NCBI RefSeq assembly: GCF_013425525.1
Contig: NZ_JACCKA010000091.1
Location: 88,899 to 152,898, forward strand
Direction: 5' to 3'
Source: Luteimonas salinisoli
Lineage (GTDB): Bacteria > Pseudomonadota > Gammaproteobacteria > Xanthomonadales > Xanthomonadaceae
Length of the DNA: 64,000 nt
In this document: piece by piece, positions 6,923 to 26,083 of the stretch
Position numbering within the stretch: position 1 is the stretch's first letter
Layout: every line of letters starts with the position of its first letter
The notes under the pieces: generated by a model
Told to the model about the DNA's origin: nothing
The model's input: only the letters and a program-made list of their open reading frames with translations
The model's database searches: none
Made by a program: the position numbers and the translations under genes

Positions 6923-8282
6923 ATTCCTGCTGCGCTGGCTGGCGGAAAGCACGGCGGCGACCGCCGTCGCCGCCTGCCTGGTGCTGATGCTGCGCCGGCC
7001 GCTGCGGCGCGCGTTCGGCGCCGGCGCGGCCTACCTGGCGTGGGCGCTGGTGCCCGCCGCGCTGCTTGCGGCTTCGCTGCCGCGCCCCGCCGTGGATTCG
7101 CCGCTGCTGCAGGCCCTGCCGCTCCACCCGGGCGTGCTCGTGGGCGGCGCCATGCCGCTGGACGGGCAGGGCGCCGGCGTCTCCGATGCGGCATCGGCGG
7201 CGGCGCTGCTGTCCGCCTGGGCCGTCGGGGCGGTGCTGCTCGGACTGCGGCTGGTAGCCCGCCAGCGGCGGTTCAACGCCGCCCTGGGCGCGCTGCGGCG
7301 CCGGCCCGACGGCGCCTGGGAATCGAGCGGCGGCCAGGGTCCGGCGGTGGTCGGCGTCTGGCGTCCGCGGATCGTGGTGCCGCCGGATTTCGATGCGCGC
7401 TATCCGAAACGACAGGCGGCGCTGATCCTCGAGCACGAGCGCGTCCATGCCCGGCGCGGCGACGTGCCGGCCAGCCTCGCGGCCACCGTGCTGCGCTGCC
7501 TGTACTGGTTCAACCCCCTGCTGCACGCGGCAGCCGCGCGCTTCCGCCTCGACCAGGAACTGGCCTGCGATGCGGCGGTGCTGGCGCGACACCCCGGCGC
7601 CGGGCGCAGCTACGGATACGCGATGTTGAACACGCAGCTGGCCGTCCCCGGACTGCCGGCCGGCTGTCATTGGCAGTCCAGCCAATCCTTGAAGGAGCGC
7701 ATCACCATGCTCGGAAATCCCCAACCAGGCGTCATCCGGCGTCATCTCGGAAGCTCGATGCTTTGCGTCCTGCTGGCCGGCAGTGCCTACGCCGTGTGGG
7801 CGGTGCGGCCGGCACTGGCCACTGCGTCGCCGGCAGCGCCGGCATCGTCCCTCCAGGCTGGACCAGCGGCGGCGGGCGCGGAGAGGGCGCCCGCTGCAGC
7901 CCGGCCGGCCGGAGCAGGCATTGCCGACGCAGGCGCCGGCGATGGCGGACCGGATTCCGTCACCCCGCCACCCCGGTATCCCGCCGCGGCGGTCGCCGCG
8001 AAGCAGAGCGGGCGGGTCGTGCTCAGACTGCTGGTGGGGGTCGACGGCAGCGTGAAGGACGTGGTGGTCGAGGCCTCCGAGCCGGCAGGGGTCTTCGATG
8101 CGGCGACCATCGATGCGGCGCGGCAGTGGAAGATCGCGCCGCGGATGCAGGAGGGCGAGGCCATCGAAGGCTGGGTCAGGGTGCCCGTCACGTTCGAGAT
8201 ACCGCCCGAGGAACCGGCCGGGAACGCCGTCGACGGGGTGGCGCCGGCGCGGGCTGCAGACCGGCACGGAGCGGCCGGCTGA
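6912..8282 (+). CDS. M56 (BlaR1-like) membrane metalloprotease with TonB C-terminal domain
   Basis: The 456-residue protein starts with several membrane segments (residues 1-90) and an M56 protease domain with the zinc motif HERVH (about residue 176) and the downstream ELACDAAVLA segment. A further membrane segment (about 280-297, MLCVLLAGSAYAVWAV) is followed by an Ala/Pro-rich linker and a TonB_C domain (about 350-430, PPRYPAAAVAAKQSGRV then VRVPVTFEI). There is no penicillin-binding sensor domain, so the signal is probably not a beta-lactam bound as in BlaR1. It is translationally coupled to the repressor gene. The TonB-like tail may sense or transmit an envelope state; that role is inference. 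Confidence 0.9.
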   Translation: MDTEFLLRWLAESTAATAVAACLVLMLRRPLRRAFGAGAAYLAWALVPAALLAASLPRPAVDSPLLQALPLHPGVLVGGAMPLDGQGAGVSDAASAAALLSAWAVGAVLLGLRLVARQRRFNAALGALRRRPDGAWESSGGQGPAVVGVWRPRIVVPPDFDARYPKRQAALILEHERVHARRGDVPASLAATVLRCLYWFNPLLHAAAARFRLDQELACDAAVLARHPGAGRSYGYAMLNTQLAVPGLPAGCHWQSSQSLKERITMLGNPQPGVIRRHLGSSMLCVLLAGSAYAVWAVRPALATASPAAPASSLQAGPAAAGAERAPAAARPAGAGIADAGAGDGGPDSVTPPPRYPAAAVAAKQSGRVVLRLLVGVDGSVKDVVVEASEPAGVFDAATIDAARQWKIAPRMQEGEAIEGWVRVPVTFEIPPEEPAGNAVDGVAPARAADRHGAAG

Positions 8283-8295
8283 GCCGGTGCTCCGT
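8266..8295. terminator. hairpin between convergent genes
   Basis: ACGGAGC (8266-8272) pairs with GCTCCGT (8289-8295), and an inner CCGGC/GCCGG stem surrounds the M56 stop codon in the loop, with one wobble and one bulge. It sits exactly where the M56 gene and the convergent TauE gene meet, so a bidirectional terminator is plausible. No T-tract is visible on either strand. Confidence 0.35.
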
Positions 8296-8302
8296 CCCCG
8301 CC

Positions 8303-9052
8303 TCACGCCAGTAGCAGCTTGCCGGCGGCCACCAGCAGCACCAGGCCCAGCACCCGCCGCAGTCCCGTCAGCGGCAGCCATGACAGCCCGAACTGGGTGC
8401 CGAGCAGCGCCCCGACCGCCACCACGCACAGCCACAGCGGCAGCGCGTCGGGCAGGGTGCCCTCGGCGCGCAGCAGCCCCGCCAGCGCGGCGAGGGAGTT
8501 GATCCACACGAACGCCACGGAGGTGCCGCTGGCCTCGCGCGTGGGCATCCAGTGCATGAACAGCAGCAGCGGGGTGAGGAAGATCGCCCCGCCGGTGCCG
8601 GTCAGTCCCGACAGGGCACCGATCGCCGCGCCCGCGATCAGGCCCGGCAACCACGGGACGCGCCGGCCGGCGGCGCGCGCGTCGCTGGCGGCGGCGGCGC
8701 CGGCGCTGCGGAAGACCCCGGCGGCTGCGACCAGAAGGACCACGCCGAGCAGGACCGAAAACTCGCGCTCCGGCAGGGAGACCCCGGCGGCGAGGAACGC
8801 GGCCGGGGCGGAGGCGAGCGCGAAGGGCAGCACGTTGCGCCAGCGCACGTGGCCGGCGCGGTGGAACCGCACAAGGCCGATCCCGCCCACCAGCAGGTTG
8901 AGCGCCAGCGCGGTCGGGCGGATCTGTTCCGGCGCCAGCCCGGCCAGCGCCATGGCGGCGATGTAGCCGCTGGCCCCGGCGTGTCCTACGGACGAGTAGA
9001 GCGTGGCGACGAGGAAGAACAGCAGGGCCAGCAGCAGGACGGTCTCGCTCAT
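8303..9052 (-). CDS. TauE/SafE family permease
   Basis: The 249-residue protein has about eight hydrophobic membrane segments and the internal two-fold repeat typical of TauE/SafE (DUF81). The first half carries SSVGHAGASGYIAAMAL and the second half GALSGLTGTGGAIFLTPLLL. Family members export sulfite, sulfoacetate or related organosulfonates, but many are uncharacterised and the substrate cannot be told from sequence. The ATG at 9052 is directly in front of a membrane segment. No sulfur-metabolism genes are adjacent, so the function stays general: an inner-membrane anion permease. Confidence 0.88.
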   Translation of the reverse strand: MSETVLLLALLFFLVATLYSSVGHAGASGYIAAMALAGLAPEQIRPTALALNLLVGGIGLVRFHRAGHVRWRNVLPFALASAPAAFLAAGVSLPEREFSVLLGVVLLVAAAGVFRSAGAAAASDARAAGRRVPWLPGLIAGAAIGALSGLTGTGGAIFLTPLLLFMHWMPTREASGTSVAFVWINSLAALAGLLRAEGTLPDALPLWLCVVAVGALLGTQFGLSWLPLTGLRRVLGLVLLVAAGKLLLA

Positions 9053-9104
9053 CGCGAAATGGTAGCGGCTGACTTGCTGTGGCAGCGTCGCGCCGCCGCG
9101 CCGT

Positions 9105-11770
<2,666 letters not shown>

Positions 11771-19518: not shown

Positions 19519-19575
19519 TGTCACAGTCGCAAGGGTCGCCCGTGTGTAGGTTGCAGCTGTGCCGGGGCTGTCACA
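19519..19575 (+). promoter_or_regulatory. TGTCACA direct repeats upstream of lan locus
   Basis: Two exact TGTCACA copies (19519-19525 and 19569-19575) are spaced 50 bp apart, about five helical turns, in the 197-bp gap upstream of the lanthipeptide precursor. They could be half-sites for a regulator acting on the lan promoter. I cannot define -35/-10 boxes with confidence, so this is a tentative regulatory region. AAGGAGAGAG just upstream of the precursor ATG is a strong ribosome-binding site. Confidence 0.35.
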
Positions 19576-19671
19576 AGGCGTGACGGTTGAAGGGTATGAA
19601 GCAGTATCGGTTGCGCCTGCGCGCGCTTCCGGCACGCGTTTTCCCCTCAATTTTTTCAAGGAGAGAGAAAG

Positions 19672-19860
19672 ATGAAGAACGCTTCCCAGAGTGCCGAGCT
19701 CGTCGCGCAGTGGCGCAGCAATGCCCAGGCCGGAAATCCGGCGGGTCCGCTGTTCGTGTCGGGCGAGTTCGCCGAGGCGGACATCGTGTGCGAGACCGGC
19801 ACCGGCAGCGGCCAGTGCGGAACCGCCTGTTCGGGCTCGCTGACGCGCATGTGCTGCTGA
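19672..19860 (+). CDS. class II lanthipeptide precursor peptide
   Basis: The 62-residue peptide is encoded 6 nt before a LanM gene, behind AAGGAGAGAG. The leader (about 1-39) has Trp14-Arg15, Asn22-Pro-Ala-Gly25 and a Glu-rich EFAEAD segment, the W...NPAG...ELxE pattern of lichenicidin/plantaricin C-type leaders. There is no Gly-Gly or Gly-Ala cleavage site. The Cys/Thr/Ser-rich tail begins at Cys40 and contains Cys40, 49, 53, 61 and 62, with Thr42, 44, 51, 58 and Ser46, 54, 56 available for dehydration; it ends in Met-Cys-Cys. Up to five thioether rings are possible in principle. The exact core boundary is unknown. Confidence 0.88.
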   Translation: MKNASQSAELVAQWRSNAQAGNPAGPLFVSGEFAEADIVCETGTGSGQCGTACSGSLTRMCC

Positions 19861-19866
19861 GGCGTC

Positions 19867-22761
19867 ATGGTGTCTGTGGCGCCTGTCGCGGACGCTGAAA
19901 ACTTCGATGCATCGCTGGGTTGCCTGATCTCGCCCGCAATGGGCGGGCTGGCAACCCGGCTCGCTTCCATCGAAGGGCTGCGGGCGGGCGAGCGTGCCGT
20001 CGTCGTCGAGGCAACGCGCGAGGCGTTGCGCGACGTGCTCCATGCCAAGCTCGGCCGCCTGCTCGTACTCGAACTCAACGCTGCCCGCGTGACCGGGCGC
20101 CTGCGCGCCGCCACGGCCGGGGACAGATGGCGCGAGTTCCTGGAAATCTCTTCGCGGCGGGCCTTCTGGGACGACCTGTCCGAACACTACCCCCCGCTGC
20201 ACGCGCGCGTCGAAACGATCCTGGACAACCGCTGCGCGGCATCGGTCGCGCTGGCCCGCCACTGGGTCCGCGACCGCGAGCACCTGTCCGCGCTGCTGGG
20301 GGGGCCGCCGGGCGCAATGCTGGAGCTCCGCTTCGGCGCCGGCGACAGCCATCGCGGCGGCAGGACCGTGGCGATGATCCGCGCCGAAGGCGGGCGGACC
20401 GTCTACAAGCCGCGCTCGCTCGCGGTGGACGCAGCGCTGGCGGACTTCATCGCCTTCGTGGCGGAGCGGCACGCAGGTGCAGTGACCATGCGCGTGCCGC
20501 GCAGCTGGAGCGGCGCCGACCACGGCTGGGTGGAATTCATCGAGCACCGCCACGCGCGCGACGACGGCGAACTGCGGGGCTTCTATCGCGGCATCGGCCA
20601 CTGGCTGGCGCTGATGCGCCTGCTCGCGGGCAGCGACCTGCACGCGGAGAACCTGATCGCTCACGGCGGCGAGCCGGTCGTGGTGGACTGCGAGACGCTG
20701 TTCACCCCCGTGTTCGCGCCGAGGGTCTCCGACTACGGCCAGGCGCAGGACCGCGCCGCCGGCCTGGTCGCGAGGACCGTGCTCAACGTCGGGCTGCTGC
20801 CGGGCCGCGGCGTCGGCCTCGGCTGGCGCGGGATCGACAGTTCCGCGCTCGGCATGCTTCCGGGGCAGCAGCCGATGGTCGCGCAGCCGGGCATCCTTTC
20901 CGCCGGCTCGGACCAGGCCCGCATCGGCACGACGCTGGTCGCTGCGCCGGTCGCCAGGAACCACCCCAGCGAGCATCCGGCGCTGGCGCAGTATTGGCCG
21001 GAGGTGCTGGCCGGATTCGATGCGATGACCGCGACCCTCCAGCGCCTGGATCGCGACGGCGTGCTGCGGGCGCGGCTGGAGCCGTTCGCCGCCTGCCACA
21101 CGCGGGTGGTGCCGCGGGCGACCGAAGTCTATGCCGAGGTCGGCCGCATGCTGTGGCACCCGGTCTCCCTGCACGACCCGGAACCCGCGCGGCAGCGCGC
21201 GTTCGAACTGCTCCGGAAGATGGCCGGCAACGTCGCCACCGCCCCGGACGATCCGGCGGTCGTTCACGCCGAGATCATGGACCTGGAGGAAGGCGACATC
21301 CCCTTCTTCGCAGGATGCGTCGGCGAAGGGGTGTACTCCGGGCCCGGAGGCACGCGCTGGGGTCCGGGCGGCAACCTCGTCGACCAGTCCCTGGCGCATT
21401 GGCGGACGGCCGACTTCGGGCTCGAGCGGGGCGTGATCCAGGCATCGCTGGTCAGCGCCTACATCAACGACGGCTGGATGCCGGACGAGGCCTCGATGCT
21501 GCCCGAGCGCGGCCGCGGCGGGGATCTCGACGCCCGGCGCAGGCGCCAGGCCGCCTCGATCGTCCAGGCGATGGCGGACCGTTCGATCAGGGCCGGGGAC
21601 GGCAGCATCGCCTGGATCGCGCCGGTGCTCGACCCCACCGGCTGGTCGGTGCAGCCGCTGCAGCAGGATCTCTACAGCGGGATGTCGGGGCTGGCGGTGC
21701 TGGCCGGGGCGTATCTGCAGGAAGTCGCGGGCGGGCGCGCCGATCCCGTCGCAGGGCTCGACGCGGTCCTCGACGACACCCTGCGCACGCTGGGGCTCTT
21801 CGAGGCCAAGCGCGAGCGGCTCCAGCGCCAGGGGCTCAAGGTCAGGCCGCTCCCGCCGGGCGGCTACATCGGGCTGGGATCGCAGATCTGGACCCACCTG
21901 CTGCTGGCGCAGTGGGGACTGGACGGCGGGCGCGGCATCGAGCGCGCCGAAGCGCTGGCGGCGCAACTGCCCGTGTCGATCGCCGCGGACGAGGTGCACG
22001 ACCTGCTGTCGGGTGCCGCGGGCGCGATCGTCCCGCTGATCGCGCTCGCGGAAATCTCCGGCGATTCCCGCCACCTCGGGCTCGCGCGCGAAGCCGGCGA
22101 CCGGCTGTGTGCGCATGCGGTGCGCCGCGACGGCAGGGCCTGGTGGGTGCACGGCCAGTGGCCGGAGGGCGTCGGCGGTTTCGCCCACGGCGTCACCGGG
22201 ATCGGCTGGGCCCTGCAGCGGCTCGCACGGGCCACCGGCGAGGAACGCTACGCGGAGGTCGCCGCCGGCGCGTTCGCCTTCGAGGACGCGCTGTTCGATG
22301 CGACCGAGCGCAACTGGCGGGACCTGCGCAACCTCGAGGGCGGGACCGGGACGGCGGCGGCGTGGTGCCATGGCTCGGTCGGCATCGGGCTGGCCCACCT
22401 CGACCTCGATCCGGCGCTTGCGGACGGGCGCACCCGCGCGCTGGTGCGCGACGCGGCCCTGGCGACGCATCGCCTCGGCTTGGGCTGGAACCACTGCGCC
22501 TGCCATGGCGATGCCAGTGCGTGGGAGCTGCTCGACCGGGCCATCGCCGCCGGAGAGGGCCCCGACGGCATGCACCGCGACCGGCTGCTCGATCTCCTGC
22601 TGACCAGCCTGGAGGAGCATGGCCCGTCCTGCGGCCTGGCCCGCGACGCCTTCGTGCCCGGCCTGCTGCCGGGGGTCGGGGGCGTGGCCTACCAGTTGCT
22701 CAGGGCCCATCCGGACAGCCGCCTGCCCACCATCCTCACGCCCGGGGGCGGCCTCGTCTGA
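19867..22761 (+). CDS. lanM: class II lanthipeptide synthetase LanM
   Basis: The 964-residue bifunctional enzyme dehydrates Ser/Thr of the precursor and cyclises them with Cys. The N-terminal DUF4135 dehydratase domain (about 70-560) shows TVYKPRSLAVD, GSDLHAENLIAHGGEPVVVDCETLF and related motifs of the kinase-like active site. The C-terminal LanC cyclase domain (about 600-960) has GFAHGVTGIGWAL and all three zinc ligands: Cys834 in WCHGS and Cys879-His880 in CACHGD. Length is normal and nothing appears truncated, so it should be active. The ATG at 19867 is 6 nt after the precursor stop; no separate promoter is needed. Confidence 0.95.
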   Translation: MVSVAPVADAENFDASLGCLISPAMGGLATRLASIEGLRAGERAVVVEATREALRDVLHAKLGRLLVLELNAARVTGRLRAATAGDRWREFLEISSRRAFWDDLSEHYPPLHARVETILDNRCAASVALARHWVRDREHLSALLGGPPGAMLELRFGAGDSHRGGRTVAMIRAEGGRTVYKPRSLAVDAALADFIAFVAERHAGAVTMRVPRSWSGADHGWVEFIEHRHARDDGELRGFYRGIGHWLALMRLLAGSDLHAENLIAHGGEPVVVDCETLFTPVFAPRVSDYGQAQDRAAGLVARTVLNVGLLPGRGVGLGWRGIDSSALGMLPGQQPMVAQPGILSAGSDQARIGTTLVAAPVARNHPSEHPALAQYWPEVLAGFDAMTATLQRLDRDGVLRARLEPFAACHTRVVPRATEVYAEVGRMLWHPVSLHDPEPARQRAFELLRKMAGNVATAPDDPAVVHAEIMDLEEGDIPFFAGCVGEGVYSGPGGTRWGPGGNLVDQSLAHWRTADFGLERGVIQASLVSAYINDGWMPDEASMLPERGRGGDLDARRRRQAASIVQAMADRSIRAGDGSIAWIAPVLDPTGWSVQPLQQDLYSGMSGLAVLAGAYLQEVAGGRADPVAGLDAVLDDTLRTLGLFEAKRERLQRQGLKVRPLPPGGYIGLGSQIWTHLLLAQWGLDGGRGIERAEALAAQLPVSIAADEVHDLLSGAAGAIVPLIALAEISGDSRHLGLAREAGDRLCAHAVRRDGRAWWVHGQWPEGVGGFAHGVTGIGWALQRLARATGEERYAEVAAGAFAFEDALFDATERNWRDLRNLEGGTGTAAAWCHGSVGIGLAHLDLDPALADGRTRALVRDAALATHRLGLGWNHCACHGDASAWELLDRAIAAGEGPDGMHRDRLLDLLLTSLEEHGPSCGLARDAFVPGLLPGVGGVAYQLLRAHPDSRLPTILTPGGGLV

Positions 22762-22865
22762 GCGTCGACCCGGCCACGGCGGAGGAGCTGCAGGTCCCCT
22801 ATTGGCGGCTGGAGGAGGAGGCGCAGGCGCGCCCCGGGCTCTGGGCGCTCACTCGCAGGCTCGGG

Positions 22866-24656
22866 ATGGCGGTGCGCCCGGTGATGCGGATCCTGCGCAG
22901 GGCGGCCCCGACGTCTTCCCTGGTGATCCTGGCCGCGCAGCTGGGCTCGGGCGTGGCGACCGCCGGCCTGCTGCTGCTCACCACCGACATCCTGTCGAGC
23001 CTGCTGGCGACGGTGCCCAACGCGGACCGGCTGCGGGCGGCGTTGCCGGCGCTGGCGATGCTGGCGGCCGTGTACGTCGTGAAGATGATCCTCGATGCCG
23101 CCGTGCTGCATGCCCGGGCGCACCTGGTGCCGAAGGTGCGCAGGCTTGCGGAGGAGGAGTTGTTCCATGCGAGCCTGGGCGTGGAGCTGGCCGCGTTCGA
23201 CGATCCCGGCTTCTACGACCAGCTGCACCGGGCCCGCGATCGCGGCGTCATGCACCTGGAGGGCGCCACTGCCTGCCTGGTCGATGCGCTGAGCGCGGCG
23301 TTCGCGGTCGCGGGCGCCGCCGCGGCGCTGTTGCTGTTGCACCCGCTGCTGCTGGTGCTGCTGGTGCTGGCGTTGCTGCCCGAGGGCTGGGCCGCCCTGC
23401 ACGCGGCCAGGCTGCAATACGGGGGCATGCCCCTCACCATCGCGTATACGCGCCGCGCCCAGATGATGGGCGAGCTGGCGACCCAGCGCGAGGCCGCGCC
23501 GGAGATCCGCGCGAACCAGGCGCAGGAGTACGTGCTGTCCGAATTCCGCCGCTGCGCCGGCGAGCTCCAGGACCACCTGGTGCGGCTCGGCATCGCGGAG
23601 GCGCGGGCCACCACGTCGGGGCGCCTGCTGTCCGGCGCCGGACTGGTCGGGACGTTCGTCGCGCTGGGCTGGATGCTGCACCAGCAGTGGCTGGACCTCG
23701 CGGTGGCGGGCACGGCGGTGATCGCGATCCGCGCGACGTCGGGATCCTTGCGCATGTTCATGCAGATGGTGCACGAACTCTTCGAGAAGGGGCTGTACAT
23801 CAGCGACTACCGGGAGTTCACCGAGAACTCGGCGGCACTCTCGCGGCCGCGCCGCGGCACGGCCGCGCCGGCCAGTCCCGGCCGGATCGCGCTCGAGAAC
23901 GTGGGCTTCCGCTATCCCGGCGAACACGGCCGCACGGCGCTGCGCGATCTCACGCTGACGATCGAGGCCGGGCAGACGGTCGCCCTGGTCGGGGAGAACG
24001 GGTCCGGCAAGACCACGCTCGCCAAGCTGCTCGCGGGGCTCTACCGGCCGGGTAGCGGGCGGATCTGCTGGGATGGCGTGGACATCCGCGAGATGGATCC
24101 GGAAAGCCTGGCCGACCGGGTGGTGATGGTGCAGCAGCATCCGATCCGCTGGCCGCGCAGCGCCGAGGACAACATCCGCCTGGGGCGGTACGCGCGCACC
24201 GATCCGGAAGAGGCCGCGCTCATGGAGGCCGCACGGCAGGCGCGGGCCACCGAGGTCGTCGAAACCCTTCCCGACGGCTGGCGCACGCTGCTGTCGCGCG
24301 AATTCCGCGGCGGACAGGACCTGTCGGCAGGGCAGTGGCAGCGCCTGGCGGTGGCGCGCGGCCTGTACCGCGATGCGCCGCTGGTGATCTGGGACGAGCC
24401 GACCGCGCCGCTCGACGCCCGTGCCGAACACGCCGTGTACGAGTCGCTTCGCGGCTTGTCCCGCGACCGGACCGTGGTGATGATCACTCATCGCCTGGCC
24501 AGCGTGCGCAACGCGGACCGGATCTTCTTCCTCGAGCGCGGGGCGCTGGTGGAGCAGGGCACCCATCGCGAACTTCTGGCCATGGACGGACGCTACGCAG
24601 AGCTGTACCGGCTGCAGATGCGGATGCACGGCCCCGAGCCCGTGGGCGAACCGTGA
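22866..24656 (+). CDS. ABC exporter (membrane plus ATPase), no peptidase domain
   Basis: This is a fused half-transporter with six predicted membrane segments in the first two-thirds, then an ATPase: Walker A VGENGSGKTTLAK, Q-loop MVQQHP, signature LSAGQWQRLAVARG, Walker B LVIWDEPTAPLD and H-loop ITHRLASVRNADRI. There is no N-terminal C39 peptidase, unlike classical LanT, so it probably exports the peptide without cleaving the leader. The reading frame is open from immediately after the lanM stop, with protein-like sequence (VPYWRLEEEAQARPGLWALTRRLG) but no ATG/GTG/TTG before the ATG at 22866. The true N-terminus may be about 35 residues longer through a rare start such as CTG. Confidence 0.9.
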   Translation: MAVRPVMRILRRAAPTSSLVILAAQLGSGVATAGLLLLTTDILSSLLATVPNADRLRAALPALAMLAAVYVVKMILDAAVLHARAHLVPKVRRLAEEELFHASLGVELAAFDDPGFYDQLHRARDRGVMHLEGATACLVDALSAAFAVAGAAAALLLLHPLLLVLLVLALLPEGWAALHAARLQYGGMPLTIAYTRRAQMMGELATQREAAPEIRANQAQEYVLSEFRRCAGELQDHLVRLGIAEARATTSGRLLSGAGLVGTFVALGWMLHQQWLDLAVAGTAVIAIRATSGSLRMFMQMVHELFEKGLYISDYREFTENSAALSRPRRGTAAPASPGRIALENVGFRYPGEHGRTALRDLTLTIEAGQTVALVGENGSGKTTLAKLLAGLYRPGSGRICWDGVDIREMDPESLADRVVMVQQHPIRWPRSAEDNIRLGRYARTDPEEAALMEAARQARATEVVETLPDGWRTLLSREFRGGQDLSAGQWQRLAVARGLYRDAPLVIWDEPTAPLDARAEHAVYESLRGLSRDRTVVMITHRLASVRNADRIFFLERGALVEQGTHRELLAMDGRYAELYRLQMRMHGPEPVGEP

Positions 24657-26083
24657 GCGACGCGGCCGACCCGGCCCGCGGGCTGCCATGGGAGCGACTC
24701 GCCGCACGGATGCGGGGCGAGGTGATCGCGGCCGGCGACGACAGGATGCTGCTCGCCAGCAAGCACTTCGCCGCGGGCAGGCCGCTGGCGTTCCCGGAAA
24801 GGCTGCTGCGCTGCGCCAGGCCGGACGACGTGCGGACGTGCCTGGAATTCCTGCGCGAGCACGGTCTCGATTTCGCCCTGCGCAGCGGAGGGCATTGTTT
24901 CGCCGACCTGTCCTCGAGCGATTCGGTGATCCTCGATGCCGGTCCGATGGACGCGGTGGTGCCGGAGGGCGACCTGGTGAAGCTCGGGCCGGGTGCGCTG
25001 GCCGGCGACGTCAGCCGGTCTCTCGCCGCCGCCGGACGCGCGATCCCCACCGGCGGCTGCCCGCTGGTCGCCGTCGGCGGGCTCGGGCTCGCCGGCGGCT
25101 TCGGTTTCCTCGGCCGCCGCCACGGCCTGACCACCGACCAGATCGAGTCGATGCAGGTCGTGACCGCCGACGGGCAGCTGCTGTCGACATCGGCCGAGAG
25201 CCATCCGGACCTGTTCTGGGCGCTGCGTGGCGCGGGATGCGCCGGCTTCGCCATCGTGACGTCGCTGACGTTGCGGACCCGCCCGCTCCAACCGGCCACG
25301 GTCTGCCGAGCGGTCTGGCCGATGGAACACGCGGCGGACGTGATCGCCCTGTGGCTGTCGTGGGGTCCGGACGCGTCGGACGAGGTGAACCTGGAAATCG
25401 GCCTGTACTGTCCGGACGATCCGGAGCGGCCCTGCCACGTCGAACTGTTCGGTGTGGTACTGGGCGAGGGGGTGGGCGCGCGCGCGCAGGTCGCCACGGT
25501 GCGGGCCGCGCTCGGGCCGCACGGCGCCGCGCTGCGGACCTGGGAGCTGGCCGGCCCTGCCGCGTCCGCGTACATGGTCGGACAGTTGAATCACCAGACC
25601 GGCGACGCCTGGCTGCCGAGCCGGCCGTACCGCGACGTCGGGTTCCAGTTCACCCGTTCGGATTTCTTCGACGCGGCACCGGACGCGGACGCGATCGGCC
25701 ACCTCGTCGATCGTTTCCAGTCCGACCGCCGTTTTCCCCAGTGCCGCGAGCTGGAACTGGTCCCCTGGGGCGGCGCCTACGCGCGGCCGAACGCGCACGC
25801 CTGCTTCCACCACCGTCGGCCACGCCTGCTGGTGCGGCATACGGCGATGGTCGGCGCCCGCGCGCCCGTCGACCTGCGCGAGCACGCGCGCCGCTGGGTG
25901 GACGCCTCGCAGGCGGCCCTGGCCGCGCACGCGAACGGGCACGCGTATCAGGGCTACGCGGATCTGCAGCGGTCCGGCTGGGCCGATGCCTACTATGGCG
26001 ACGCCTGGCCGAGGCTGCGGCAGGTGAAGCGACGCTACGATCCGGACCAGGTGTTCCGGCACGCGCAATCGGTCGCCCCCTGA
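24653..26083 (+). CDS. FAD-linked oxidase, berberine-bridge-enzyme type
   Basis: The 476-residue protein starts at a GTG that overlaps the ABC stop (GTGA). It has a FAD_binding_4 (PCMH) domain with RSGGHCF (His81, the residue that binds FAD through the 8-alpha position) and PTGGCPLVAVGGLGLAGGFG (Cys136, at the place of the second covalent FAD link in BBE-like enzymes), then HGLTTDQI. The C-terminal BBE motif AYYGDAWPRLRQVKRRYDPDQVF is intact. Such enzymes oxidise alcohols, amines or C-C bonds with O2. Tight coupling to the lan genes implies it tailors the peptide, but no lanthipeptide reaction of this family is known to me. It is unrelated to LanD decarboxylases. Confidence 0.9.
   Translation: MSDAADPARGLPWERLAARMRGEVIAAGDDRMLLASKHFAAGRPLAFPERLLRCARPDDVRTCLEFLREHGLDFALRSGGHCFADLSSSDSVILDAGPMDAVVPEGDLVKLGPGALAGDVSRSLAAAGRAIPTGGCPLVAVGGLGLAGGFGFLGRRHGLTTDQIESMQVVTADGQLLSTSAESHPDLFWALRGAGCAGFAIVTSLTLRTRPLQPATVCRAVWPMEHAADVIALWLSWGPDASDEVNLEIGLYCPDDPERPCHVELFGVVLGEGVGARAQVATVRAALGPHGAALRTWELAGPAASAYMVGQLNHQTGDAWLPSRPYRDVGFQFTRSDFFDAAPDADAIGHLVDRFQSDRRFPQCRELELVPWGGAYARPNAHACFHHRRPRLLVRHTAMVGARAPVDLREHARRWVDASQAALAAHANGHAYQGYADLQRSGWADAYYGDAWPRLRQVKRRYDPDQVFRHAQSVAP

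Follow-up and report, generated by a model that had tools for sequence, protein, structure and literature searches.

Can a flavin oxidase related to the berberine bridge enzyme (BBE) be a dedicated partner of a class II lanthipeptide synthetase and, if so, which part of the peptide does it modify? The question is raised by a locus in Luteimonas salinisoli, located in a stretch of 64,000 nucleotides (here called the window) that is part of contig 84 in a genome of 4.5 Mb and 95 contigs. Four genes lie head-to-tail at positions 19672-26083 of the window and encode a precursor peptide of the DUF6229 family, a LanM synthetase, an ATP-binding cassette (ABC) exporter and an oxidase with FAD_binding_4 and BBE domains. 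An initial annotation, made from the sequence alone, had placed these four genes in this interval, which Pfam and TIGR03897 matches confirm. It had also described the locus as a compact class II lanthipeptide unit whose oxidase is of the type that carries bicovalent flavin adenine dinucleotide (FAD), and the oxidase does have both FAD-linking residues, H81 and C136. The comparisons presented here make it probable that the locus is a class II lanthipeptide unit that is self-contained, mobile by horizontal transfer and equipped with a dedicated peptide-modifying bicovalent-FAD oxidase. The peptide family is already known, and the new part of the unit is the dedicated BBE-related oxidase.

Distribution and inheritance of the four genes

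The initial annotation proposed a search for LanM loci with a co-located FAD_binding_4 and BBE gene. The order LanM, exporter, oxidase recurs in 15 genomes from Myxococcota, Gammaproteobacteria and Alphaproteobacteria, with an intact oxidase frame in 12, a broken one in two (L082 and L164) and one cut by the end of the contig (L092). All four genes are found together in the window, Luteimonas sp. ANT-B3E, Vulcaniibacterium, nine Myxococcaceae (one with a broken oxidase) and two Sphingopyxis (one broken), and in Myxococcus vastator they are split over two contigs. Because this gene set is conserved across phyla, the oxidase is a genuine partner of the lanthipeptide unit and not a chance neighbour. 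The closest named relative of the window oxidase is that of Luteimonas sp. ANT-B3E, whose four genes are 82, 66, 72 and 59% identical to those of the window.

Scanning 84,980 genomes with a pair of degenerate oxidase patterns gave 82 loci, of which 80 were kept. Nine of the 80 (L063-L068, L071, L082 and L092) are flanked by a match to LanM or to the precursor, and two (L069 and L070) lie on short contigs from Burkholderiales that carry exporter and oxidase and end before the position of lanM. No LanM or precursor match was found in the other 69, some of which are on short contigs. In all of the ten best loci by E-value (L063-L071 and L082) the exporter adjoins the oxidase; the next locus, L072 (38% identity), has no LanM, and L092 is ranked lower since its contig cuts the gene. 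The locus L067 is recorded as Comamonas sp. KCTC 72670, but its genes group with Myxococcus and its family list is that of Pyxidicoccus; the name looks wrong.

The exporter and the precursor are held by the same 10 of 96 Myxococcaceae genomes, and the oxidase is present in all ten exporter genomes (eight intact, one broken, one cut by the contig end). Within the window's own family, an exporter with more than 50% identity is found in 5 of 395 genomes, two of which (the window's and Vulcaniibacterium) also have the oxidase. Only Sphingopyxis HIX itself has the exporter among the 298 genomes of its family, and an exporter search in a sample of 398 Pseudomonadota genomes returned the window's genome and no other. 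DUF6229 matches occur in 13 of 101 relatives of the window (its own genome included), all in the same genus. At E <= 1e-10 the operon copy is the only oxidase homologue in the window's genome, and no homologue was found anywhere in the eight tested genomes among the 22 that have DUF6229 loci lacking the oxidase.

Genes flanking the unit vary from locus to locus. No fifth gene, such as a protease or immunity gene, recurs in more than 3 of the 14 loci compared with a crude open reading frame caller, which failed to call the exporter of the window as well as several short precursors. The oxidase matches in L082 (approximately 9001-10390) and L164 (approximately 7047-8442) fall in different frames while the precursor, LanM and exporter frames are open, and these are either broken genes or sequencing errors.

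The genes also resemble each other in their divergence. Across the 12 loci in which all four genes are intact, the pairwise distances for each gene correlate with those for the others at r = 0.92-0.985 (permutation p 0.0001 each); for LanM and oxidase r is 0.98 (p 0.0001, n = 12). The gene trees broadly agree in that Myxococcaceae are placed together in each; the oxidase tree puts the window next to Luteimonas ANT-B3E, a pairing that the exporter tree leaves open. LanM rows shorter than 700 amino acids (L024 and L036) were dropped from the trees, L092 was dropped from the LanM trees, and the broken or cut oxidases (L082, L092 and L164) were left out of the trees and the residue counts below. 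These patterns support, but do not prove, a joint history of the four genes, as the related genomes are not independent. The unit has probably spread between phyla by horizontal transfer of all four genes together.

Residues and fold of the oxidase

The oxidase gene (24653..26083, plus strand) has a GTG start and encodes 476 amino acids with matches to FAD_binding_4 (E 6.2e-21) and BBE (E 3.6e-13). The AlphaFold model has a mean predicted local distance difference test (pLDDT) score of 90.8, and the nearest solved fold is EncM, with a template modelling (TM) score of 0.84 by query length and 27% identity. Domain matches, model and fold comparison together show the domain pair and the vanillyl-alcohol oxidase (VAO) fold of BBE-like oxidases. 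No signal peptide is evident by eye.

Residues were compared between 14 intact operon oxidases and 32 non-operon relatives, the latter chosen as 33 of the 69 loci without the unit and reduced by one (L138) that was short; the invariance of C82 in this comparison is partly forced by the search pattern. H81 is present in all 14 operon oxidases and all 32 relatives. C136 is found in 14/14 and 17/32 respectively, but the other 15 relatives have a Cys one column earlier, probably through an alignment shift, and C136 is therefore useless for separating the two groups. Both residues, which occur together in all 14 intact operon oxidases, align with the His and Cys of Tcz9 that hold FAD. In Tcz9/Clz9 this link is described as covalent, the gate residue is Ile, and Val at the oxygen-gate position is described as favouring the use of O2 (PMC12632287). 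The corresponding V139 is Val in 14/14 operon oxidases and is not operon-specific because it is also Val in 32/32 relatives. Judged from these residues, the oxidase would bind its flavin covalently and use O2.

Other positions do distinguish the operon oxidases. At position 434, where the Y/FxN motif of BBE-like enzymes has its Asn, all 14 have Gly, whereas the relatives have Asn (30/32) or Ala (2/32) and never Gly. Thus the initial label of a BBE-type enzyme holds for the FAD_binding_4 and BBE domains but not for the motif, which is YxG in 14/14, and the enzyme is here called BBE-related and not a plain BBE member. Position 436 is Ala in all operon oxidases and Pro in 28 of the 32 relatives. 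There is also an operon-specific insertion near residues 319-326, with 24-27 of the 32 relatives gapped at the listed columns around 319-325, and it overlaps a low-confidence part of the AlphaFold model (322-327). In the alignment with Tcz9 the insertion corresponds to the loop QGEAAAAEQVR, within a region that the authors of that structure think is involved in substrate entrance (PMC12632287), and it might have a role in admitting the peptide. The operon oxidases thus appear to be a distinct, substrate-dedicated subfamily.

Core modules of the precursor and the target of the oxidase

The precursor gene (19672..19860, plus strand) encodes the 62 amino acids MKNASQSAELVAQWRSNAQAGNPAGPLFVSGEFAEADIVCETGTGSGQCGTACSGSLTRMCC, which match DUF6229 with an E-value of 1.8e-18 and 66.6 bits, well above the curated Pfam cut-off of 25. 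The window peptide is thus an additional member of an already recognised family of class II precursors. Residues 40-62 constitute a core with five Cys and seven Ser/Thr, encoded beside lanM, and the whole precursor is 55-82% identical to those of 11 other loci whose oxidase is intact. Two modules can be recognised in the core. The N-terminal module, residues 40-49 (19789..19818, plus strand), has the pattern [CH][EQ]x4[ST]G[QRK]C, and the C-terminal module, residues 49-62 (19816..19857, plus strand), has the pattern CGTxC[ST]xSxTxxCC.

It is the N-terminal module that goes with the oxidase: all 15 operon precursors have it, against none of 29 precursors from loci lacking the oxidase, some of which are identical or nearly so. 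Both modules are present in the 12 precursors whose loci have an intact oxidase and in the two whose oxidase gene is broken, and the M. vastator precursor, for which only the N-terminal module was tested, has that module. In a first set of 21 DUF6229 precursors lacking the oxidase, the N-terminal module was present in none and the C-terminal module in five. A profile search with the operon precursors then gave matches in 16 of 395 genomes, eight of them new to the set and from another genus of the family. These eight loci have LanMs with 57.5-59.5% identity, no exporter or oxidase match within the 16-19 kb taken, and none has the N-terminal module. There is some circularity in the first count, because the pattern itself derives from the operon set; the eight loci added afterwards provide a modest test out of sample. 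The leader is retained in the DUF6229 loci lacking the oxidase.

A LanM tree of 39 rows shows four changes in the presence of the oxidase, at least three of them on well-supported branches, with long branches (L068 and Sphingopyxis) leaving some placements unsure. The N-terminal module and the oxidase change together in three of three independent pairs (sign test p = 0.25, the limit for three pairs). The exporter alone fails to explain the module because L060-L062 have kept the exporter and lack both module and oxidase. Elsewhere in the family the cores are diverse: the DUF6229 precursors of L022-L038, in the window's genus, have many different cores, L023 and L024 have two precursors each, and one genome has identical precursors on two contigs (L037 and L038). 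The LanM match is split into two pieces in L024 and L036, which lack the oxidase, and these might be pseudogenes or sequencing errors.

The initial annotation named the C-terminal Cys-Cys as an example of where an oxidation could be installed. This pair is invariant across the 12 aligned operon precursors, but its conservation is not tied to the oxidase since the whole CGTxC[ST]xSxTxxCC module is kept in five precursors that have none, whereas the N-terminal module tracks the oxidase. The Cys-Cys pair is therefore not the site to favour, and action of the oxidase there or on another C-terminal residue, by decarboxylation of the aminovinyl-cysteine (AviCys) type or oxidation of a disulfide or thioether, is unlikely. 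Tentatively, and with somewhat less than even confidence, the target is instead placed in the N-terminal core module. Within it C40 itself seems dispensable, because one group of Myxococcus has His at position 40; T42 is replaced by Ala in L065, and no aromatic residue of the module is conserved in the operon precursor alignment.

The genomic evidence gives good confidence that the peptide is the substrate of the oxidase. The solved sequence relatives of the enzyme (Tcz9/Clz9, EncM and 6-hydroxy-D-nicotine oxidase) use small molecules, and it could be imagined that it acts on a diffusible metabolite or produces hydrogen peroxide, with co-regulation as its only link to the peptide, for instance in a joint antimicrobial action. 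That is improbable when the oxidase is tied to one set of precursor, LanM and exporter across phyla, when the core module changes with its presence, and when no other gene recurs alongside in more than 3 of 14 loci. Even less credit can be given to the oxidase as a passenger on a mobile cluster with no fixed role. Its absence from most DUF6229 loci seen and its disruption in two loci would fit, yet the genes overlap or nearly overlap, the position of the oxidase is constant in every complete locus, and it is co-inherited with conserved cofactor residues.

In the proposed pathway of a peptide-modifying oxidase, LanM would dehydrate and cyclise the DUF6229 precursor. The oxidase, acting after LanM or between its steps, would take two electrons from the peptide and hand them to O2. 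Its likeliest target would be residues 40-49, for example the alcohol of an unmodified Thr or an alpha-carbon. Oxidation beside O, N or S (Thr alcohol, alpha-carbon or thioether) is more plausible than phenol chemistry, which is unlikely because the N-terminal module has no conserved aromatic residue. The ABC exporter would then secrete the finished product, and a protease from outside the unit would cleave the leader. The proposal as a whole, that a BBE-related bicovalent-flavin oxidase tailors the N-terminal core module of a DUF6229 peptide and that the four-gene unit has spread between phyla, stands at about an even chance.

Several observations weigh against the proposed pathway. Most DUF6229/LanM loci seen have no oxidase, and LanM can therefore work without it. 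The oxidase is broken in L082 and L164 while the other three genes stay, so the peptide may be useful unoxidised there, unless these are sequencing errors. H81, V139 and the Cys (within one alignment column) are also present in all 32 non-operon relatives and therefore mark a flavin oxidase, not a peptide oxidase. With the Asn of Y/FxN replaced, the chemistry may differ from that of standard BBE-like oxidases. The core pattern was set after the operon set had been viewed, and three independent pairs give no lower value than p = 0.25. Finally, the distance correlation among related genomes partly reflects common descent.

Organisation of the locus and relation to known systems

The LanM gene (19867..22761, plus strand) is complete and encodes 964 amino acids, with DUF4135 dehydratase and LANC_like cyclase domains, as in class II synthetases, and a TIGR03897 score of 534.5 bits against a cut-off of 304. 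It is the one LANC_like match in the genome. The motifs WCHG and CHGD, which we take to be the zinc-holding residues of LanM, are present in 18 of 18 aligned LanMs of the operon family. The exporter (22758..24656, plus strand) is MsbA-like according to domain searches; no C39 peptidase domain was matched in Pfam at E <= 0.001, and it is thus not a bifunctional LanT. Pfam gave no match to an HFCD flavoprotein or luciferase-like domain in any of the four genes.

The 6-nt gap between precursor and lanM and the GTGA overlap of exporter stop and oxidase start (24653-24656) are both as initially described. At 22758-22761 the lanM stop overlaps the probable exporter start in CTGA, and the CTG at 22758 opens a reading frame conserved in relatives; the first in-frame ATG, GTG or TTG, at 22866, is downstream of the conserved PYWRL stretch. 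An in-frame CTGA junction occurs in 12 of the 15 loci where a single contig carries lanM, exporter and oxidase, in two phyla (besides the window L063-L067, L092, L159-L162 and L164). Both Sphingopyxis loci have GTGA and L068 has neither, and in some other loci a GTG or TTG is found a few codons downstream of the CTG junction. The exporter thus likely has a conserved, translationally coupled CTG start. These overlaps make it plausible that the four genes are one regulated unit. A gene for an RNase_H_2 protein is located upstream, and the oxidase appears to be the last gene of the unit because the GNAT acetyltransferase gene downstream is on the other strand.

An inverted repeat, GTCAC-N5-GTGAC (19570..19584), 87 nt before the precursor start, might be an operator. 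It is the only match in the window (0.07 expected; at least one match in 7 of 100 shuffles) and recurs in Luteimonas ANT-B3E (L063), within the 200 nt that precede the precursor, but in none of 17 other loci examined. It is possibly a regulator site in both Luteimonas loci, with a chance match as the alternative. No sigma-70-type promoter was found for the unit, and three terminator-like sites are all inside genes.

The same pairing of DUF6229 precursor and LanM is found in the lanthipeptides of Dyella and Lysobacter. DUF6229 members were identified as lanthipeptide precursors with the rhodanocins from Dyella, one relative there being produced, digested with AspN and tested (PMC9576775), and Lysobacter has 72 class II clusters in which DUF6229 accounts for 21 of 27 unique precursors (PMC11451712). 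The remark in the initial annotation that such peptides are rarely described thus applies to characterised products, which are few, but not to the clusters. Compared with the other DUF6229 precursors collected here, that of the window has a different core, and its unit adds a conserved exporter and oxidase. The words "oxidase", "fad" and "flavin" are absent from the available main text of PMC9576775, as is "fad" from that of PMC11451712.

Among solved structures, the bacterial BBE-like flavoenzymes Tcz9/Clz9 are the best sequence matches to the oxidase, and both FAD-linking residues align. The window enzyme differs by Gly for Asn in Y/FxN, Val for Ile at the oxygen gate and the extra loop near 319-326, and the substrate studied for Tcz9/Clz9 is a small molecule (PMC12632287). 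In EncM, one of the two covalent flavin links is lost, unlike the residue pair of the window oxidase, of which E368 aligns with an EncM Glu. The substrate of EncM is a polyketide.

Known lanthipeptide oxidations are performed by LanD, luciferase-like, cytochrome P450 and iron/2-oxoglutarate (Fe/2OG) enzymes. They likewise have a dedicated oxidative tailoring gene beside the synthetase, but protein fold and cofactor chemistry differ from those of the window oxidase. Luciferase-like oxidation is covered in PMC7268733, which also places FAD-dependent oxidoreductases near class IV clusters and, in the available text, names no berberine-type enzyme. The suggestion in the initial annotation that a bicovalent-FAD-type oxidase had not been described as a LanM partner stands: no berberine-bridge-type oxidase for a lanthipeptide was found in the open-access literature, and subscription papers may have one. 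The accessible text of a 2024 review of BBE-like oxidases (PMC11375781) does not contain "ripp", "ribosomal" or "lanthi", and the one open-access paper in which "lanthipeptide" and "berberine bridge" occur together concerns a fibrostatin cluster of Streptomyces.

Should modification of the peptide by the oxidase be confirmed, the toolbox for ribosomally synthesised and post-translationally modified peptides (RiPPs) would gain bicovalent-flavin oxidases, in a compact unit of four genes that is easy to refactor. An added modification is of practical interest because one DUF6229 peptide has been reported as active against Klebsiella pneumoniae (PMC9576775, PMC11451712). Relatives that share the leader and have closely related LanMs but differ in whether they carry the oxidase constitute a natural experiment in which the site and the chemistry of the modification are directly testable.

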